In this document: one piece after another, positions 35,304 through 48,379 of the stretch | Layout: each line of letters opens with the position of its first letter | How positions within the stretch are numbered: the stretch's first letter is position 1 | Assembly (NCBI RefSeq): GCF_032362555.1 | Contig: NC_083516.1 | Span: forward strand, 10,255,001-10,319,000 | Source of the DNA: Amyelois transitella | Taxonomy: Eukaryota; Arthropoda; Insecta; Lepidoptera; Pyralidae | Reading direction: 5' to 3' | Length of the DNA: 64,000 nucleotides | Notes under the pieces: generated by a model | What the model saw: only the letters and a program-made list of their open reading frames with translations | Database searches by the model: none | What the model was told of the DNA's origin: nothing | Position numbers and translations under genes: made by a program

Positions 35304-38300
35304 CTACGTGGTGCCGGCGGTGCTGGCGGTGGAACTCTTCGTCTTCAGCTCCAGACTCCGCAGCGGATTACTCTGGCGCGCCTGTTGACAAATTAACAGG
35401 TTAATAAAAAGTTTAAAGACACTTTTACACATTACAAAATTTTCTCTTTGGATGTGTGATATATATTTTTGTAATTAGTATAAAAAATGGCGTGTAACCA
35501 CACGCACCTTTAAAAAAAAAGAATGGGACTACTCCATCTCGTTCCCGTGGATGTAGTAAAAGGCGACCAAGTGATAGGCTTATATACTTGGGATTCCTCT
35601 TTAAAGCGACGGACCAGCAACTTGTCACTATTTTAATTCTATCATTCATCAAACATCTGTTCTATTGGTCTATTCGAGATTCAAGTCAAGCTTAATTGGA
35701 CCGGAACCGATTTTGTCGAATTGATTATGCCGTGTGGTTCTCGGCACCAATACAAAAAAGAATAGGACCACTCCATCTCTTTAAGTCCTAAAAGGCGAGA
35801 AAGGGATAGGCTTACAAACTTGGGATTCTTCTTTAGGCGATGGGCTAGCAACCTGTCACTATTTGAATCTCAATTCTATCACTAATCAAAATAGCTGAAC
35901 GTGGCCATTCAGTCTTTTCAAGACTGTTGGCTCTGTCTACCCCGCAAGGGATATAGACGTGACCATATGTATGTATGTCAAACCAGTTAAAAATAAAAAC
36001 TCACCAGTCGTTTCAACGTCCTGACGTTCTGGTAATTCTTCTTGGTCTTCTTCTTAACCGGGGCCTCGGTGATCTCCTGATCGGCTTCCGGCTCCTCGTG
36101 CCTCAGCGCGGCCGGCAGCAGGTACTCCGGTATGTGGGCCAGGTGTTCTTGGAGTTTGACCGTGTGCAGTGCCTTGTCCCGCCTGAGAGCCGCTAAGTCA
36201 GTGGGGTTCTCTTCGAAGTAACCCTGGGGGGAAGATGATGGGTTAGATTGGGCGAGTGAGAGATGGTGGGAGGGTGAATTTTCATTTCATGATTTATTTT
36301 AACTGTTTTAGTGTTATCATTATTTTTATTGTATAACCAAGAATTTGATTACTAAAAATTGATTATCTTTTGTTTTTTAGGTAGTTAATACATTTAAACT
36401 GTTAAATATTTGACTAATTTATGAGAAAATTAAAATAAAAAAAATATTATGTTGAAGTGAATGATGCTCTGTAGAAATAAATGACAAACATCGTTGAGGT
36501 AAATGATAAGGTGTTACAGGTAATGACGAAAAATCAGGTATATTTATTTAAAAAAGTCAAAACTTCTCTTGTTAATTCAAAAAACTTAATGAAATGAAAA
36601 ATCCTCTTAACTATCGATTATTATAATAGCTTAACTTTGATAATCTGTGATAAATTTTAGGGCATCAGTCGACATCAGTTATCAACGCTAAGTTGACTGA
36701 TTCAGGTCAACTTAACATAAATCGACCTCATTTATTTCTCATAAAATAGCTTTACAGACTTATAAATCTTAGGACACCAATCAACATAATAAGTCAGGTC
36801 AACTTAACGTAATTCAGTCTCATTAATTTCTAATTAAATAGCTTAACAAACTTATAAATCTCAAGACACCAATCGGCATAATAAGTCAGGTCAACTTAGC
36901 TTAAATCAGTCCCATTAATTTCTAATTAAATAGCTTAACAAACTTATAAATCTCAAGACATCAATCGGCATAATAAGTCAGGTCAACTTAACGTAAATCA
37001 CTCTCTTTAATTTCTAATTAAATAACTTTTTTAACAAAGTTATAAATCTTAGGACACCAATCGACATAATAAGTCAGGTCAACTTGGCGTAAAACAGTCT
37101 CATTCATTTCTAATTAAAAAGTTAAAAAAAATTATAAATCTCAAGACACCAATCGGCATAATAAGTCAGGTCAACTTAGCTTAAATCAGTCTCATTAATT
37201 TCTAATTAAATAGATTAACAAACTTATAAATCTCAAGACACCAATCGACATAACAAGTCAGGTCAACTTAGTGTAAATCAGTCTCAATAATTTATATTTA
37301 AATAGATTAACAAACTTTATAATGTAATCTTTGATAAATCTTAGGACACCAATCGTCATAATAAGTCAGGTCAACTTAGCTTAAATCAGTCTCATTAATT
37401 TCTTATTAAATAGTTAAACAAACTTATAAATCTCAAGACACCAATCGGCATAATAAGTCAGGTCAACTAAGCTGAAATCAGTCTCATTAATTTCTAATTA
37501 AATAGATTAACAAACTTATAAATCTCAAGACACCAATCGACATAATAAGTCAGGTCAACTTAGTGTAAATTAGTCTCATTAATTTCTATTTAAATAGATT
37601 AACAAACTTTGTTATGTAATCTTTAATAAATCTTAGTACACCAAACGACATAATTTTCGACATTTTGCTAATATATATTTTAGAAATAAATCAATCTATA
37701 TGTAATAACAAATATCGTAAATCTTATTAAGCAACACTAAAAAACGGGAATCACTGATCTATTCATCAAAAATATCCTTAGAAATCATTCACCGCAACAA
37801 CTATTGTTCAGTAAATGATGTTACGATAAATGACGAAACAAAACAAAACCTTTCGTGACATGTACTAACTAATAAAAACACGTGATGTGATTTCGTTCAT
37901 TTTTAATTGAAAACTAAAAAGCGTCTAGCAGATAAATCCTTCTAATAAAAAAAATACTTATCACAAATTAACGGAGAGTTGTTTAATGACGTGGTTTTGT
38001 GACAAAATTGCAGAAAACTTTCTTGATCCGCTCTTTTATACAAACGCGTGTGCACTTTCTGATGTCTCGGCCGCTAATAAGGGGTCGAGCGGCGAGGTCC
38101 GGGAATTCACTATGAATATGTTTGTAACTAGTATTTTTGTTCAATATTTTTGCAAAACTCAAACCCGGAAGTCAATGACGAATATGTTGTAACAAAATTT
38201 CAAATAGTCAAATAATGCTCAATGAGCAATATAGAGATGGAAAATAAATAAAAATTACTTAATTTAGACAGTAACCAAAATGTATATGGTATAAACAAGG

Positions 38301-39389
38301 AAAATTTAGGAACCAATTTTAAGTAAACTACAAGTATAGTAAATATTCTGTAAAATAACGTGGCGGTGAATGACTTTTCGTAGCTGATTTTACGAAATTT
38401 AATATATAAATTGTAAAAATTTCTATTCTCATCTTAAACATGTTATAGATCATTTAATAAAGTTTATTTTTGAGCATCATTCAATTAAATAAATATTTAT
38501 TTTGACTTTGTTTAATTAAGGAACACAAATAATTTACTATTTTGAAAATCTACCCGGGAGATTGAGTGGGAGTCACATCAGGGAGAAGATTAGTCGTTCA
38601 TCAATGTTTTATGTGTGGTTGTTGTCATCATTTTTAGTAGAATCTTTAGTAAAAAAACAATATTGTATTACACCATTTCGGCCTCTATGGTGCAGTGGTT
38701 GTACGCTTTTGCCCTGACACAGGAGATCCCGGGTTCGAAGCCAGGGCAGGACATGATGAGAAACGAACTTCCTCTGATTGGCCTGAGTCTTGGATGTTTA
38801 TCTATATAATTAGTCGTATTTGTCATAAAATATAGCATCGTTGGGTTAGTATCTCGTAACACAAGTCTCGGACTTACTTCGATGCTTACTCAATCTGTTT
38901 AATCTGTCCCGTATATATTTATTTATTTACTATGCAATATAAACAAAGAAGAAGTATTGACAAATAGTATTATGCAGCGCGAAAGTCTAAAATCAGTTAT
39001 TTCTTGATTGTATAATAACTTCCACTTGTTCTAGAACATTCCTCCTCTAGAGAGAGAGAGAGAGAGCGAGACGCCACCAACCTGCAGCTTCTTGCAGTTG
39101 ATGAGCTCCTGCTTGATCTCCTTCAGCCTGGCCTCCCTCACCGCGATCCTGGTCACGGCGCGCCAGGCGTCCCGACTCCTGTACCTGAACCCCTCCACTT
39201 GTTCTAGAACATTCCTCCTCTAGAGAGAGAGTGAGAGGGACGCCACCAACCTGCAGCTTCTTGCAGTTGATGAGCTCCTGCTTGATCTCCTTCAGCCTGG
39301 CCTCCCTCACCGCGATCCTGGTCACGGCGCGCCAGGCGTCCCGAATCCTGTACCTGAACCCTTCCACTTGTTCTAGAACATTCCTCCTC

Positions 39390-39424
<35 letters not shown>

Positions 39425-39568
39425 CCAACCTGCAGCTTCTTGCAGTTGATGAGCTCCTGCTTGATCTCCTTCAGCCTGGCCTCCCTCACCGCGATCCTGG
39501 TCACGGCGCGCCAGGCGTCCCGAATCCTGTACCTGAACCCTTCCACTTGTTCTAGAACATTCCTCCTC

Positions 39569-39607
<39 letters not shown>

Positions 39608-42600
39608 CCAACCTGCAGCTTCTTGCAGTTGATGAGCTCCTGCTTGATCTCCTTCAGCCTGGCCTCCCTCACCGCGATCCTGGTCACGGCGCGCCAGGCG
39701 TCCCGAATCCTGTACCTGAACCCTTCCACTTGTTCTAGAACATTCCTCCTCTAGAGAGAGAGAGAGAGAGAGAGAGAGACGCCACCAACCTGCAGCTTCT
39801 TGCAGTTGATGAGCTCCTGCTTGATCTCCTTCAGCCTGGCCTCCCTCACCGCGATCCTGGTCACGGCGCGCCAGGCGTCCCGACTCCTGTACCTGAACCC
39901 CTCCACTTGTTCTAGAACATTCCTCCTAGAGAGAGAGAGAGAGAGAGAGCGAGACGCCACCAACCTGCAGCTTCTTGCAGTTGATGAGCTCCTGCTTGAT
40001 CTCCTTCAGCCTGGCCTCCCTCACCGCGATCCTGGTCACGGCGCGCCAGGCGTCCCGACTCCTGTACCTGAACCCCTCCACTTCTTCCAGTGCGAATTCG
40101 TACTTCCTGTGGGAATTCTGGTCATTATTATAGAGTATAAGATGGGTGATAGTAGAGAAATTGTGGTTCAATGTCAGTGAGAAGATTAGTCGTTCATCAA
40201 TGTATTATGTGCTATGTTTGTCATCATATAGAAACTTAAAAGATATATATATAAATATATAGATATATAAAGATGGTGCCATGTGGTTCCCGGCACTAAT
40301 GAAAAAAAGAATAGGACTCCATCTCTTTCCCATGGATGTCGTAAAAGCCGACTAAGGGATAGGCTCATAAACCTGGGATTTTTTTTTTTTAGGTGATGGG
40401 CTAGCAACCTGTCACTATTTGAATCTCAATTCTATCATTTAGCCAAAATAGCTGAATGTGGCCATTCAGACTTTTCTAGACTGGTGGCACTATCTACCCC
40501 GCAAGGGAAATAGACGTGACCATATGTATGTATTTTAATAGTATTAGTTTGTATTAGAATTACAACTTACTGTAAAACCTTTTGACTGTTGAAACCTTTC
40601 GCCAAATGTGACTCCACAGCGTCCATCAGTGGCTTCTCACGGATTGAGACAAAAGACAACACTGATCCCTGTGAACAATGTAAAAGTTATTGGAAAATGT
40701 TCTAGAATAGTTTAAAATATGGTACGCCGTGTGGTTTATGGATTTCGTAAAAGGCGACTAAGGGATAGGCTTATAACCTTGGGTTACCTCTTGTAGGCGA
40801 TGGACTAGCAACCTATCACTATTTGAATCTCAATTACCTACAGCCGAACGTGGCCTTTCAGTTTTTTCAAGACTGTTACCTATGTCTTGCCTGCAAGAGA
40901 TACATATAGACGTGACTTTATGTATGTATAAAATGGCGGATAAAATTTCGGACGTTTTTCTTTATTTGGCTCTTATCTGTGAAAAATGTAAGTATATTAG
41001 TTGATCCCGTGCCAATTGCCGTGCGGATCCCGGCACAAAAAAATAATAGGACACTATCTCGTTCCCACGGATGTCGTTAAAGGCAACTAAGAGATAAGCT
41101 TATAAACCTGGGTTTCTTATAGGCAAGCCAAACAGCTGAACGTGGATTAATCTTTTGAAATTACAAAACTGCTGGCTCTGTCTACCCCGCGAGGGATAGA
41201 GACGTGATCATACAAGTGTCCAACACACCTGGTTGTTCCCCCTAGCCGTCCTGCCAGCTCTGTGCACGTAAGAGTTGACGTCGAGAGGGAAGTCGAAGTT
41301 GATAACGTTGGCGATGTGCTGAAAGTCTATACCCTGGCTCGTTAGTCTTCTGAAATGACAAGACTGCTGGCTCTGTCTACCTCGCGAGGGATAGAGACGT
41401 GATCATACAAGTGTCAAACACACCTGGTTGTTCCCCCGGGCCGTCCTGCCAGCTCTGTGCACGTAAGAGTTGACGTCAAGAGGGAAGTCGAAGTTGATAA
41501 CGTTGGCGACGTACTGAAAGTCTATACCCTGGCTCGTTAGTCTTCTGAAATGACAAGACTGCTGGCTCTGTCTGCCTCGCGAGGAATAGAGACGTGATCA
41601 TATAAGTGTCCAACACACCTGGTTGTTCTCCCGAGCCGTCCTGCCAGCTCTGTGCACGTAAGAGTTTACGTCGAGAGGGAAGTCGAAGTTGATAACGTTG
41701 GCGACGTACTGAAAGTCTATACCGCGGCTCGTTAGTCTTCTGAAATGACAAGACTGCTGGCTCTGTCTGCCCCGCGAGGGATAGAGACGTGATCATACAA
41801 GTGTCGCACACACCTGGTTGTTCCCCCTAGCCGTCCTGCCAGCTCTGTGCACGTAAGAGTTGACGTCATGAGGGAAGTCGAAGTTGATAACGTTGGAGAC
41901 GTACTGAAAGTCTATACCGTGGCTCGTTAGTCTTCTGAAATTACAAGACTTTTGGCTCTGTCTACCCCGCGAAGGATTGAGACGTGATCATATAAGTGTC
42001 CAACACACCTGGTTGTTCCCCCGGGCCGTCCTGCCAGCTCTGTGCACGTAAGAGTTGACGTCGAGAGGGAAGTCGAAGTTGATAACGTTGGCGACGTACT
42101 GAAAGTCTATACCCTGGCTCGTTAGTCTTCTGAAATGACAAGACTGCTGGCTCTGTCTACCCCGCGAGGGTTATAGACGTGATGATATATAGTTAGTTGA
42201 AGTGTCCAACACACCTGGTTGTTCTCTGGAGGGATATAGACGTGATGATATATAGTTAGTTGAAGTGTCCAACACACCTATACCCTGGCTCGTTAGTCTT
42301 CTGAAATGACAAGACTACTGGCTCTGTCTACCCCGCGAGGGATAGAGATGTCATCATATAAGTGTCGCACACACCTGGTTGTTCCCCCGGGCCGTCCTGC
42401 CAGCTCTGTGCACGTAAGAGTTGACGTCGAGAGGGAAGTCGAAGTTGATAACGTTGGCGACGTGCTGAAAGTCTATACCCTGGCTCGTTAGTCTTCTGAA
42501 ATGACAAGACTGCTGGCACTGTCTACCCCGCGAGGGATAGAGACGTGATCATATAAGTGTCCAACACACCTTGTTGTTCCCCCGGGCCGTCCTGCCAGCT

Positions 42601-45600
42601 CTGTGCACGTAAGAGTTGACGTCGAGAGGGAAGTCGAAGTTGATAACGTTGGCGATGTGCTGAAAGTCTATACCCTGGCTCGTTAGTCTTCTGAAATGAC
42701 AAGACTACTGGCTCTGTCTACCCCGCGAGGGATAGAGATGTCATCATATAAGTGTCGCACACACCTGGTTGTTCCCCCGGGCCGTCCTGCCAGCTCTGTG
42801 CACGTAAGAGTTGACGTCGAGAGGGAAGTCGAAGTTGATAACGTTGGAGACGTGCTGAAAGTCTATACCGCGCGAGACGCCGGATTCTTTGTCTCTCTTG
42901 CGCTTCGACGCTTGCTGTGAACAAAGTAATGGTATTTTATAGTACCTATGCTTGTCTGTTGTCTCTCTTACGCTTTGACGCTTGCTGTGAACAAAGTAAT
43001 GGTATTTAATAGTACCTATGTTTGTCTGTGACACCGGAGGTCCCGGGTTCGAATCGAGGCCAGGGCATGATGGGGAAAGAACTTTTTCTGATTGGCCTGG
43101 GTCTTGGATGTTTATCGATATATAATGTATTTAGTATAAATTATAGTATCATTGAGTTAGTATCTCGTAACACAAGTCTCGAACTTACTTCGAGTAGCCT
43201 TGTCACTCAATCTGTGTAATTTGTCCCTTATATATTTTTTTATTTATTAAATACGCTTTTTGTTTTTTATAAGACTGCACCGTCCTGTTAAGCTAAGACT
43301 TTACATATTATTCGCCATTGAGCGGTATCAGAGTGAACATACATACCTACATACATACATCATATAATCACGTCTATATCCCTAACAGGGTAGACAGAGC
43401 CACCAGTTTTGAAAAGACTGATAGGCCACATTCAGCTATTTGACTTTAAGATAGAATTGAGATTCAAATAGTAACAGGTTGCTAGCCCATCGCCTAAAAT
43501 AGGAATCCCAAATTTATAAGCCTTTCCCTTAGTCGCCTTTTACGACATCCATGGAAAATGAGATGGAGTGGTCCCATTCTTTTCTATATTGATGCCGGGA
43601 ACCACACGGCAAAATAAAACCAGACCGGCCAATATCTACCTTTTTCTTCTTGGCTCTCTCTTCAATAGGCAGAATGCCTCCGTCGGGTTTCTCCAAGGCC
43701 TTCTCGTCCGATGCTATGATGATCTGGTACCGTCCCCGGTTGAATTGGTCCACGGAGAGGCAGCGCACGGCGGCGGGCAATTCAGAATTCAGCACGCATG
43801 AGCCGATTTTGAACTGTTCCAGGTATAATTTTAATCTGAGGAAAAGCAAAATATAATGTATTGTTAATGGAGTTGCTTTTAGCAAGATTTTTTCATGACA
43901 GAGCTGGTGGACCGGGTGAAAATAGCTACATATTGAACACTAGCTGTGCCCGCGACTTCGTCCGCGTCGAATAGTTATTTTGGGCATCATTGGATTTTTT
44001 TTCACACTTTCCATTATTTCTTCGCTCCTAATAGTTGCAGCGTGATGTAGCCTTCCTCAATTCTTCCTCGCAAAAATAATTTTTCAATTCGAACCAGTAG
44101 TTCCTGAGACTAGCGCGTTCAAACAAACAAACAAACTCTTCAGCATTATAATATTAGTATAAATGAATCATCCCTGCTCTCACTGTAGCATATTAATTGT
44201 GTAACCTCATCATACACATGCATATGCCGAGTGGAAACCTTTTGGTCGCATCATGTAATTTTTTTATTTCTATGTTTGTGAACCATGTAATGTTACCTTT
44301 TGCGCCAAATAAAGATTTTTCTTTCTTTCTTATTATTGATAGCATTTAGAAACATGCATAATAGTCATGTCTATATACCTTGCAGAGTAGACAAAGCCAA
44401 TGGCATCGAAAAAAAATGAAAGGCAACATTCAGCTATATGGCTTTTAATGAAATTGAGATTCAAATAATGACAAGTTGACAGCCCATCACAAGAGGAATC
44501 CCAAGTTTATTAGCCTTTCCCATGCCATTTTACGACTTTCATGGTGGATATAACGTCTGTAAACTGTCATTTACATACTCTACTTCTGTTTTCCAATAAG
44601 ATACTTACTTATAGCACCTATCCACAGTCCTCACAAATATGATACTCTTTCCTCTGACCAGGTTCAACTTGAGCAGAGCATACAAGATGGCCGCCTTATC
44701 ATCTTCTTCCGCAAACAAGTGGTAATGCTGGAGTTGTGAAGATGGCGCGAGTTCAGGCTCTTCCAGTTTCAGCGTGACAGGGTTACGGAGAACAATCTTC
44801 TTTAGACTTAACACATCATCGGATAATGTGGCTGATGCAAGCACTGCTTGGTATATCTTTGGTAAATGGCTGAAATCAAAAATATATTTGATATCCTGAC
44901 TGTATTTGAGATAGTAAAAGTCTGTCCAAGGAGCAGCGAGAAAGACGAGGTACAGGGGCCGCAGCCTCCTGATCGATGCATCAGTGCTTAGCCAAACACT
45001 CCTTCAACTGACTAGCTAGGCACAGTGCGTTCCAAAGACATTAAAACCTACTTGTAATCTTGTTTTCAAACTAGTATTCCACATTACATAACAGTCTTAA
45101 TTTTTTACCTCCTTGCCTTTATCGTAATTCTTTAATTCATTGCCTCCTAAAGAGCATTCCGGATACCTGGATAGTAATAGTGGGCTGAATCAGAAAACTA
45201 TACCATATAAATAGTGATCATGAGTAGATCCAAGACAGACTAGGAAGGTCACAATTGCGATAAAAATTATTAAAAAAAAGCTCACCTTAACAACTCTTTA
45301 ATTTCAGCTTCATATCCAAACGAGAATATCAAGTCTGCCTCATCCACAACCAACATAGCCAGATCTTCCTTCAGCCTCATGTTGTTAGCCTTTAGATGCG
45401 CAAGTGCCCGTGATGGAGTCGACACAACTATATCCGGCTTGTCCATTAATAGGGACTTTTGTATTTGCATGTCCCCACTTGATGATATATCGACAAATCT
45501 TACTTCCCTGGCACATTTGAGGGTTAAATCACGAATCACAGAAGCAATCTGAAAGTTTAGAATCATAAAGTCTTCTGTACCTAATTTTTTAAAATATCAT

Positions 45601-46074
45601 AGTTTGTTAACAATGTTTTTAAGGATTAGAGAAGAACTATATATACTTATATAAATACAAATATTAGGTACTAGTTTAATAGTGCATGATAAAACACTTA
45701 AAAATATTCTAACCTGCCCACATAACTCCTTGCTAGGCGACAACACCAAAGCTCTGATGCTTTGATGGCGGCTGGTATTCTTCAAGTTCAGAATCTTCTG
45801 GATAACCGGGATGGTAAACGCTGCGGTCTTTCCTGACCCAGTGCGAGCACGCATGAGAACATCTTTACCCTCCAACAACAGAGGAATAGCTGTAGCTTGA
45901 ATCAACGTGGGTTCACTCCACGATAACTGGGATATAGCCTAAATGAAAGAAACCAAATGATAAAAGACCAGTTTAATGTATAGTTAGAATCATCATGACT
46001 GAATTATGGTTTACCTTTAGAAGCCGATCATCTAACTCCATTTCATGAAACATAACCTTCTTTTCTTCATCCAT
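35304..46074 (-). CDS. Ddx56: DEAD-box RNA helicase DDX56 (complete, 10 exons)
   Basis: Nucleolar ATP-dependent RNA helicase acting in 60S ribosome assembly (known of the family). Exons on the - strand: 46074-46015, 45938-45714, 45548-45286, 44869-44609, 43835-43640, 42914-42765, 40668-40571, 40106-39965, 36223-36005, 35381-35304. They join in one frame to 563 residues; human DDX56 has 547. Motifs: I ARTGSGKT (51-58), Ia-like LVLSPSKEL, Ib TPSR (139-142), II VDEAD (163-167), III SAT (195-197), IV IIFV, V SRGIDF (349-354), [11 protein letters not shown] (374-382). The C-terminal [23 protein letters not shown] and the last-exon NPLRS match human DDX56 ([27 protein letters not shown]). ATG 46072-46074 gives the expected short N-terminus. 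Two internal exons are tandemly amplified (see below); normal mRNA must skip the copies. Confidence 0.95.
35484..35660 (+). mobile_element. T element, diverged
   Basis: GGCGTGTAACCACACGCACC, CTCCATCTCGTTCCCGTGGATG and GCAACTTGTCACTATTT; no tail. Confidence 0.65.
35728..35979 (+). mobile_element. T element, near full length
   Basis: Head TGCCGTGTGGTTCTCGGCACC, tail GACCATATGTATGTATG. It stops 25 bases from DDX56 exon 36005-36223, on the donor side of that - strand exon. Confidence 0.9.
36655..37660. repeat. 92-base satellite with three-unit higher-order pattern
   Basis: About ten units with AAGTCAGGTCAACTTA at 36791, 36883, 36975, 37071, 37163, 37255, 37363, 37455 and 37547, plus degraded ends. 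Units fall in a repeating order: CTTAGGACACC type, then TCAAGACACCAATCGGCATA, then a second TCAAGAC type. Two of the CTTAGG-type boundaries carry an extra 16 bases with ATGTAATCTTT. It lies inside the DDX56 intron between 39964 and 36224. Confidence 0.85.
38681..38926 (+). mobile_element. tRNA-derived SINE (S), near full length
   Basis: GCCTCTATGGTGCAGTGGTTG A box, GGTTCGAAGCC B box, GTCCCGTATATATTTATTTA tail. Somewhat diverged. Confidence 0.87.
39082..40106 (-). repeat. Ddx56: Tandem array of the DDX56 C-terminal-domain exon
   Basis: Original exon 39965-40106 (142 bases). Five copies follow in gene order: 39790-39925 (136 bases), 39613-39750, 39430-39567, 39251-39388, 39082-39219 (138 bases each). 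Each copy lacks the first 27 bases of the exon and starts with RRNVLEQ in place of KYEFALEE, then VEGFRYR.RDAW... to KKLQ. The 138-base copies are phase 0 at both ends (46 codons). The first copy lacks one CT and would shift frame. Gaps between copies are 39, 39, 45, 41 and 31 bases: GTTGGTGG, a CT run, then CTAG. Copies 2-4 share a Ser-to-Ile change (RIRDA). The unit boundary falls at AAGTGGA, present both in the exon and in the flanking intron. Confidence 0.93.
40273..40533 (+). mobile_element. T element, near full length
   Basis: Head GTGCCATGTGGTTCCCGGCAC, tail GACGTGACCATATGTATG. Confidence 0.88.
40724..40928 (+). mobile_element. T element, internally deleted
   Basis: GCCGTGTGGTTTATGGATTTCG shows loss of the segment after the head. 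End GACGTGACTTTATGTATG. Confidence 0.75.
41018..41215 (+). mobile_element. T element, diverged, at the edge of the exon array
   Basis: GCCGTGCGGATCCCGGCACA head, GGCAAGCCAAACAGCTGAACGTGG, CTGGCTCTGTCTACCCCGCG and GACGTGATCATA. Its last 60 bases are the same sequence found in every spacer of the 195-base exon array, so the amplified unit captured the end of this element. Confidence 0.78.
41229..42914 (-). repeat. Ddx56: Tandem array of the DDX56 motif V/VI exon
   Basis: The full exon is 42765-42914 (150 bases). Downstream in gene order lie copies of its last 105 bases: 42570-42674, 42375-42479, a gutted one (42214-42225 plus 42281-42284), 42009-42113, 41814-41918, 41619-41723, 41424-41528, 41229-41333. 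Period is exactly 195 (105 exon + 90 spacer) on both sides of the gutted unit. Each full copy encodes 35 residues (GIDFQHV... [12 protein letters not shown]) and is phase 0 at both ends, with a GTGTG donor. The acceptor is GAGCCAG|GGT in most copies. It is lost in 41619-41723 (GCCGC) and 41814-41918 (GCCAC). Spacers carry the 3' end of a T element. Copies are nearly identical, spacers included, so the array is recent, homogenised, or an assembly artefact. Confidence 0.93.
42891..43030 (-). repeat. Ddx56: 70-base tandem duplication spanning a DDX56 acceptor
   Basis: Units 42891-42960 and 42961-43030. Both contain TTTGTTCACAG|CAAGCGTC on the - strand. The real acceptor is just after 42915. The upstream copy (exon would start at 42984) reads [12 protein letters not shown] and then stops. 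The high-coordinate unit merges into a truncated SINE at TTGTCTGT. Confidence 0.88.
43020..43235 (+). mobile_element. tRNA-derived SINE (S), 5' truncated
   Basis: Starts within the tRNA-like part (TTGTCTGTGACACCGG), B box GGTTCGAATCG, tail GTCCCTTATATATTTTTTTA. Confidence 0.87.
43339..43612 (-). mobile_element. T element, near full length
   Basis: CATACATACATCATATAATCACG tail, GATGCCGGGAACCACACGGCA head 28 bases from DDX56 exon 43640-43835. Confidence 0.9.
43938..44162 (-). mobile_element. Z repeat
   Basis: Antisense; CTAGCTGTGCCCGCGACTTCG at the low end to CAAACTCTTCAGCATTATAATA at the high end; internal deletion near 44075. Confidence 0.8.
44205..44335 (+). mobile_element. LINE 3' tail
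   Basis: ATGCCGAGTGGAAACCTTTTGG to GCGCCAAATAAAGATTTTTC and a TTTCTTTCTT tail. Confidence 0.5.
44340..44560 (-). mobile_element. T element, diverged
   Basis: CATAATAGTCATGTCTATATACC, TTGAGATTCAAATAATGACAAG and CCATTTTACGACTTTCATGG; head lost. Confidence 0.7.
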
Positions 46075-48379
46075 ATCTTGTGTTTTATTCACTTGCAAAC
46101 TAGGGATCTGTACCTTAACACCGGTACTACACCTAATAGTGGTACTATTTAAAAATAATGAAAAGTGTAGGAAAATATTTCATTTGACTGTGAGTTTTAC
46201 TACGGGTTTTGAGAAACCAAACCAACACTTAAAATAATATCTGCAAAACCAACCAAACTAAATTAAACCAGCTGCACGACAAGACCACGCGAATTCACAT
46301 GTCAACTTCAATGTGACAACGACAATAATTTTAGAATCCATGGAAAAGAAAGGGGAGGTAGATTTCATTTCGTAATCGATTTGTTTAGTCAATTAATTAA
46401 TATAATCTCAGCTTCAATCGGCATTATTTCTCACAGAAGTAGGCAGAGACTACATTTTTCCTCTTTCCACGATCTATGCATACCTACTTTTGTGTTTTTT
46501 ATGAAAGAGTACACATTGCCCTTGATCAACTTTTATAAATATGCATGGGAAGAGAACCAGCTGGCACACACCATGATTTTTTTCGCTACCAGAGCACTTG
46601 CTACTATGTGTGATTAATGTGTATCTTCTTATTCCTTTAGTTGCCTTTTATCACGATTTAAGAAGAGAAGACATCCATGGGTAAGCAATGGAGTGGTCCT
46701 ATTCTAATAAAGTGGTAAAAACCACACGATATACAAAATAAAATTGAAAATAAAACAATTAAAAAGATACTTAAAACAAAAAGATAAGAAATGATCACAA
46801 AATATAAATTTTAAATCTGTGTAAATAATAAAACAAATATGGAAAAAAAACTGAACCCATATTCTTCGACGTGAGTGAAATCGATGGCTCTAACCACTGC
46901 GCTTCTAGTAACATTGACGAGGCGCCGATATTATCCATCTCTAACGAAAATATTAGAAAATTTATCGGATAAAATAATAGTGCCGTGTGGTTCCCGGCAC
47001 CAATACGAGTGCCGTGTGGTTCCCGGCACCAATACGAAAAAGAATAGGACCACTCCATCTCTTTCACATGGATGTCGTAAAAGGCGACTAAGGGATAGGC
47101 TTATAAAATTGCGATCCTTTTTTTTAGGCGATGGGCTTGCAACCTGTCACTATTTGGATCTCAATTCCATCATTAAGCAGAGCAGCTGAATGTGGCCATT
47201 CAGTCTTTTCGGGACTATTGGCTCTGTCTACCCCGCAAGGGATATAGACGTGACTATATGTATGTATGTATGTATGTAAAATAATATGTAGTACCCAGCC
47301 AAATCGAATTTTTACCTCCATATACACCTATATTTCCGATTTCAACGAAATCGTTGGGGCCATTTTACGAGTAACACGAGTACAAACACGTCATATTAAA
47401 CGAGCCATATTTAATTCAATTGTCACATTAATCTTTTTAAATCATACATATTTTTGTGGTCAATTATCGATAGTAAAACAATCGATTCTTCGTCACCAAT
47501 TCAGCACACGATCAGTTTATGAATGTTGCCATTATCAAAATTTATGTTTAAAATGTGAAAATGAAAGGAAATTTTTGTTTTCCCTGATTTGTTTATTTTA
47601 AACCTGATTACTTTATCATGTTTTTTTCAAATTTGTTTATCTTGGTCAAGTAAGAAACATCACAAGAAATTTTACATTTAGGAGTGTTTTTCGTTAATAC
47701 ATTTTGAATATAAATAAAAAAATTGAGAACTGTATTATTTCGGAAAGTTTTAAGTGAGAAACATCTTTTAAAATAGTTTAAAATATATACATAATATGTC
47801 GTCGTCCAATCGATACTGGAAACGACGGCACTTTGTTATTTGGCCGACCATATCGAGATGTTCTTAATCTTAAGTTGGGCAGATATAAAATATTAAATTT
47901 TGTCGATATTCCGATGCATTAAATTATACTTACTAATTTTCTTGCCATAAATAATACTTTAATCAAATTCTACTCTGTTACTTGAAACAAAATTGTATAC
48001 ATATGAAAAATTTTTGGGGTAATTTATATTTTAATTGTGTAAACACCAAACAAATGGCCGTCAATGGACGTCATTGGCCGTGTTGTTTTCTGCATTGGAT
48101 TATTTCAACTTGAGTGTGATAGAATCAAGAAGCAATCTATTACGTCTATTTTTGTTTATATTATGTTTTTGTATCCCACATATCTAAAATGTCCTGAAAC
48201 TATCAAGTGTTAGCATATGTGGAAGATGTTGCGCTACGAAGGCGTACGACGGGCCACAGTTCATTGCCTTATGTAAAACTCGAAATGGTGTTTCTTCCGT
48301 GAGTGACCGAAATAATACAGTGACTTATGTGTATAGTGTGGTGAATTTTGGTGTCAGCGCTTATTGAGAAAGTGACAAA
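46075..48379. promoter_or_regulatory. Divergent intergenic region between DDX56 and Ubr3
   Basis: Should hold both promoters and both 5' UTRs. Seen in it: one T element (46980-47279) and AT-rich DNA. Near the Ubr3 side is CAATGGACGTCATTGG at 48063-48077, an inverted repeat with an ACGTCA half-site and an antisense CCAAT. No TATA box can be assigned with confidence. Confidence 0.5.
46980..47279 (+). mobile_element. T element with duplicated head
   Basis: The 29-base head GTGCCG...CGGCACCAATACGA occurs twice in a row (46980 and 47009), followed by one complete body and a GTGACTATATGTATGTATG tail. Confidence 0.9.

Follow-up and report, generated by a model that had tools for sequence, protein, structure and literature searches.

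We asked why the introns of a DEAD-box helicase gene in the moth Amyelois transitella hold repeated copies of the exon ends beside them, and whether these copies are joined into the messenger or leave with the intron. The gene lies in a 64,000-base stretch of contig C12 (NC_083516.1, positions 10255001-10319000; the whole stretch is called the window here), in a genome of 327 Mb in 33 contigs. An earlier note on this DNA had described one array, behind exon 6, and had proposed that the copies are either silent decoys or a source of isoforms in which RecA2 segments are repeated. We consider it likely that the arrays are exon-edge minisatellites of a region prone to form them, that they are tolerated because the parent exon stays intact and the copies fall on its intron side, and that splicing mostly skips these copies. 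The gene and the two parent exons are as follows.

36005..46074, minus strand: DDX56/Dbp9-like DEAD-box helicase gene, nine exons placed (the last exon not among them), 538 codons
42765..42914, minus strand: exon 6, intact parent exon, encoding motifs V and VI
39965..40106, minus strand: exon 8, intact parent exon

The nine placed exons are in frame and stop-free over the 538 codons, and 8/8 introns are GT-AG. Both the DEAD (8.2e-38) and the Helicase_C (1.9e-17) domains of Pfam were matched by the translation, which also contains the helicase motifs, so that the gene belongs to the DEAD-box helicases; we presume the subfamily to be DDX56/Dbp9 from C-terminal similarity. A comparison of a C-terminal piece with solved structures, up to an E value of 1, gave no helicase match. 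In a genome-wide protein search (80/86 candidates scored), close matches (79-99%) fell at the gene's own locus only, and a second locus or retrocopy was rejected, all other matches being at most 51% identical.

Array 1 repeats the end of exon 6. Its unit consists of the last 105 bases of the exon, the donor and 90 bases from the tail of a short interspersed element (SINE), giving a period of 195 bases.

41147..42869, minus strand: array 1, with the parent end of exon 6, seven full copies and one gutted copy
42570..42674, minus strand: copy 1, donor AAG/GT as against CAG/GT in the others
42375..42479, minus strand: copy 2
42166..42279, minus strand: gutted copy, exon part gone, internal direct repeat at 63 bases
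42009..42113, minus strand: copy 3
41814..41918, minus strand: copy 4, junction CCACGG, probably the ancestral state without AG
41619..41723, minus strand: copy 5, junction CCGCGG, no AG
41424..41528, minus strand: copy 6
41229..41333, minus strand: copy 7, at the array edge
41012..41228, strand not assigned: SINE of intron 6, source of the 90-base spacer through its tail

This repetition exceeds chance. We recovered the array as the earlier note had described it, with one full exon, seven full copies of its last 105 bases and one gutted copy; 105 and 90 are both multiples of three, and the full copies are phase 0 at both ends. The exact 195-base period stated there holds between full copies but gives way to 366 bases across the gutted one. 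On the minus strand, the eight 105-base segments, parent included, start at 42869, 42674, 42479, 42113, 41918, 41723, 41528 and 41333. The exon 6 unit is unique in the genome, as 7 exact 21-base matches were found, every one within array 1.

The junctions between spacer and exon copy record how possible acceptors may have appeared. At the in-frame junction CCAGGG is read in 5/7 full copies and in the gutted copy, with CAC at 41918 and CGC at 41723. These two copies had been taken to have lost the acceptor AG; they do lack it, but the AG was probably gained in the other copies by a C to G change, because GGCCACG, without AG, stands at the matching place in 11/17 non-array SINE tails found by a pattern search and also in copy 4, whose CCACGG is the SINE's GGCCACG fused to the exon's GGTATAG. 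The AG of a second motif upstream, TTTCAG, is probably derived as well, because none of these 17 tails has it at that place and TTTCAA is found at the distal edge of the array. Relatives of this SINE family are dispersed across the whole window, and a search for its letters in papers gave no match. A link to viral contigs was considered and dropped: a 17-base pattern gave two records, and blastn of both against the window returned nothing. At 46979-47037, where a SINE begins, there is a 29-base tandem pair that spans no exon edge as far as seen.

The earlier note had described the repetition for one helicase exon, but it is not peculiar to that exon. Exon 8 has an array of its own, the acceptor side of exon 6 is duplicated, and two neighbouring genes carry exon-edge arrays (see below).

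39019..40087, minus strand: array 2, the end of exon 8 repeated, six copies counting the exon
42889..43028, minus strand: 70-base duplication covering the acceptor of exon 6 together with the first exon bases
36702..37654, strand not assigned: 92-base tandem array within intron 8, no exon overlap

Each unit of array 2 takes in the final 123 bases of exon 8, the donor and then (CT)n-rich intron for 46-60 bases. The extra copies start at 39912, 39735, 39552, 39373 and 39204; their exon parts differ pairwise at 0-3 of 123 bases, and the length of (CT)n varies between copies. The unit's limits are GAAGAAGTGGA in the exon and GAACAAGTGGA in the intron, and AAGTGGA is common to both. Junction homology is about 2 bases in array 1 (CG in the exon, CG in the SINE tail). 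The 70-base duplication has AGACAAA in common between exon and intron edge, with extra bases at the junction, and because of these bases the use of this homology would not be clean. A second dispersed element with a transfer RNA B-box-like GGTTCGAA is present in two copies (38715-38882 and 43029-43193, 86-88% alike), and each exon array has one of them nearby.

Would the copies be used in splicing? The signals lean towards skipping, short of proof. The in-frame acceptor of array 1 has a second AG 2 bases upstream and a pyrimidine content of 0.29, compared with 0.50-0.86 at the true acceptors of the gene, so the poor tract pointed out in the earlier note is borne out, as is its remark that the better AG upstream shifts the frame: TTTCAG (pyrimidine content 0.71 in six copies, 0.57 in one) would yield 121 bases. 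In array 2, the distance from donor to AG is 31-45 bases, and the stretch ahead of the AG lacks A in 5/6 cases and has a single A in the sixth. Because these gaps are so short and hold almost no A, neighbouring copies could hardly be spliced to each other; a longer jump that skips over a copy may be compatible with length. The leader of the first extra copy is 13 bases, which shifts the frame. Reading through the donor meets a stop 6 codons after exon 6 and 12 codons after exon 8. Taken as predictions from sequence, these signals make it most likely that the helicase copies are spliced out.

A number of observations pull the other way. The acceptors of array 2 have a pyrimidine content of 0.93-1.00, above any real acceptor here, and a 15-base leader in 4/5 extra copies keeps the frame and would add 46 residues each (translations of the insertion cover copies 1 and 2, of which copy 2 belongs to the in-frame set). 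The AG-free zone at TTTCAG, 12 bases, is short but not by itself decisive against use, because that of real exon 8 is 9. All of the full 105-base segments of array 1 (8/8) translate without a stop, and no full exon copy in either array has a stop or a frameshift. Variable sites are sparser in the exon part (10/105) than in the spacer (15/70; Fisher p 0.045), and the pooled ratio of nonsynonymous to synonymous substitution rates (dN/dS) is about 0.38, with the amino acid altered at six of the ten variable exon sites. This conservation is not evidence of use, since the numbers are small and the copies derive from a constrained exon.

The branch-point comparison, too, gives weak evidence for skipping. 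The strict motif yTnAy was found at 4/8 real and 0/20 array acceptors, and a relaxed TNA, adopted after that result, is in reach at 8/8 real acceptors and at 0/20 array sites (14 of these in array 1), which are copies of three site types (two without AG, one the array edge). The evidence is weak because the motif was chosen post hoc, only three site types are involved, and 137/213 ordinary intronic AGs of the gene outside the arrays (64%) pass as a control; the chance of three types failing is about 0.36 cubed, near 0.05 by hand calculation. Moreover, some A is within reach at 20/20 array sites.

Similar arrays continue beyond the window, in two neighbouring genes.

C12:10326282-10329478 (L038 7306-10000 and L039 1-478): 84-base array of an exon end in a UBR-like E3 ligase gene
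L036 8136-8360: 33-base acceptor array of an exon in an SLC6-like transporter gene, seven 3' splice site copies

The UBR-like array has 38 donors counting the exon, spaced at 84 bases and once at 93. The exon end is 57 bases long, and 48 of these are present in the copies; 30/38 matches are 100% identical, and the exon frame is open across the entire array. Similarity of nearby exons to UBR1/UBR2 is weak (E 0.024 and 0.046), and a solved-structure search with one UBR-like exon gave no match. The SLC6-like exon matches Pfam SNF at 1.5e-44. Thus, within a contiguous 104 kb, five boundary-spanning events are found in three genes: at the exon 6 donor, the exon 6 acceptor, the exon 8 donor, the UBR-like exon and the SLC6-like exon. 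In all five the copies are on the intron side of the exon, the exons of the neighbouring genes being predicted models. The same 104 kb also holds arrays that span no exon edge as far as seen, namely the 92-base array of intron 8, one at 1218-1336, a 328-base one in L037 and a 99-base one in L038, directly past a donor.

Arrays with a Tandem Repeats Finder score of at least 400 were found in 4/4 flanking 10-kb pieces (the 40 kb around the window), compared with 3/20 distant pieces, which were taken at 3.00-3.01 Mb of contigs C1-C20 and not matched for gene content. A post hoc hypergeometric count by hand gives about 0.003, a figure that is overstated because one array covers two pieces (it runs on from the third flanking piece into the fourth) and because the distant pieces are unmatched for gene content.

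The arrays, their junctions, the open frame of the gene and the neighbouring arrays are observed directly; from them we infer a duplication mechanism, a selective filter and non-use of the copies. Short or partial homology would permit a duplication that starts inside an exon and ends in the next intron, or its mirror image around an acceptor; unequal exchange or slippage would then expand the duplicated edge. With the exon itself intact and the array on its intron side, splicing of the gene could still proceed from that exon, and the copies would leave with the intron. Selection would keep only arrangements that spare the real exon. An array-prone stretch of chromosome would account for several arrays in the helicase gene together with more in its neighbours.

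It is improbable, though of the other explanations we give it the most weight, that the arrays act as poison or decoys, in that extra donors and frame-shifting pseudo-exons would cut output through nonsense-mediated decay or slow intron removal, with array length tuning expression. Intron 6 does contain seven extra donors like the real one, and stops would follow from inclusion near residue 435 with one 121-base copy of array 1, near residue 427 with two, three or seven, and near residue 518 with copy 1 of array 2. However, the array 1 acceptors are weak, there is no sign of selection keeping the arrays, and unrelated neighbouring genes carry similar ones. A lower probability is given to in-frame inclusion, by which array 2 would supply isoforms with additional C-terminal helices, or array 1 isoforms with additional motif V-VI segments; for this reading the phase 0 ends and the dN/dS of array 1 speak, along with the frame of array 2 copies 2-5 (46 more residues) after a near-pure pyrimidine tract. 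Against it are the poor in-frame and frame-shifting better acceptor of array 1, the nearly A-free 31-45-base gaps and out-of-frame first extra copy of array 2, and, weakly given three site types and 64% of control AGs passing, the lack of TNA at 20/20 array sites. A second motif V-VI segment is also expected to disturb the RecA2 fold. Use of the copies as protein modules is hence unlikely and chiefly conceivable for array 2, and between the two possibilities of the earlier note the sequence leans to silent decoys.

An assembly artefact, with arrays or copy numbers wrong, seems very unlikely. The 30/38 identical matches of the UBR-like array would fit one, but variants, some private and others shared, occur among the array 1 copies, of which one is gutted, (CT)n is of unequal length in array 2, and the assembly is contiguous, with its 33 contigs for 327 Mb. 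Least probable to us is that the exon-intron boundaries of the region are amplification hot spots through splice-site- or transcription-linked instability and that array 2 copies are spliced in as 46-residue modules.

We compared these tolerated exon-edge minisatellites with known systems. Minisatellites, or variable numbers of tandem repeats, in genes are short tandem units in near-identical copies with variants common to copies. The arrays here share these features and are of that class, their units being head to tail, highly alike and between tens and hundreds of bases long; unlike the usual case, the unit holds a coding-exon end and its donor, and two exons of one gene and a neighbour are involved. 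Mutually exclusive exon clusters such as Dscam also have repeated exon sequence in one gene, as the helicase gene does, but their members are complete exons with their own acceptor and donor, whereas the copies here are 3' exon parts without the parent's acceptor. Intron gain by tandem duplication, with a new intron spliced between copies, is an outcome the signals lean against.

In the potato RdRp (RNA-dependent RNA polymerase) gene, a new intron, detected as such, was created by a single tandem duplication (PMC4974935). The duplicated segment there likewise crosses an exon-intron boundary and carries splice signals; here, in contrast, there are 6 to 8 repeats (38 next door), placed inside existing introns and known from sequence alone. 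Passages on earthworm metallothionein genes describe fourth-exon duplications and intronic minisatellites, and within those passages no exon-end-plus-donor units at a fixed period appear, nor the involvement of several exons or neighbouring genes (PMC12783039). Arrays in which exon ends and their donors recur many times did not come up in a narrow literature search of open-licence PMC papers.

The locus offers a natural experiment on how far a gene tolerates tandem amplification at its splice sites. That all five boundary-spanning events of the 104 kb have their copies on the intron side is what a selective filter would predict. Pseudo-exons with ready-made donors, which may later gain AG acceptors by mutation, are raw material for new exons or introns, and if copies were spliced in, they would provide a fast route to repeated protein modules. 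In such genomes, automatic gene prediction may call false repeated exons.

Similar arrays were also looked for genome-wide through domain matches, a search that would overlook pieces as short as the 48-base copies in the UBR-like array. Helicase_C gave 90 matches (104/104 candidates scored), 8 of them array 1, and no other tandem set was seen by eye among the remaining 82. No short-period set was seen by eye among kinase (145 matches, 130/534 scored), ABC (21 matches, 19/189 scored) or mitochondrial carrier matches (132 matches, 150/170 scored), the last being a weak test because carriers have natural internal repeats. An overlapping kinase pair on C4 was examined as a further array and had no repeat.

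Other arrays and one duplication were observed. The 328-base duplication of L037 (7728-8387) has coding sense and resembles the tail of a reverse-transcriptase frame of a long interspersed element (LINE) in L036. A GC-rich array in L019 (4521-5556) has a 171-base unit in six copies, and no convincing coding sense was seen in it; the arrays of L016 and L017 appear AT-rich.

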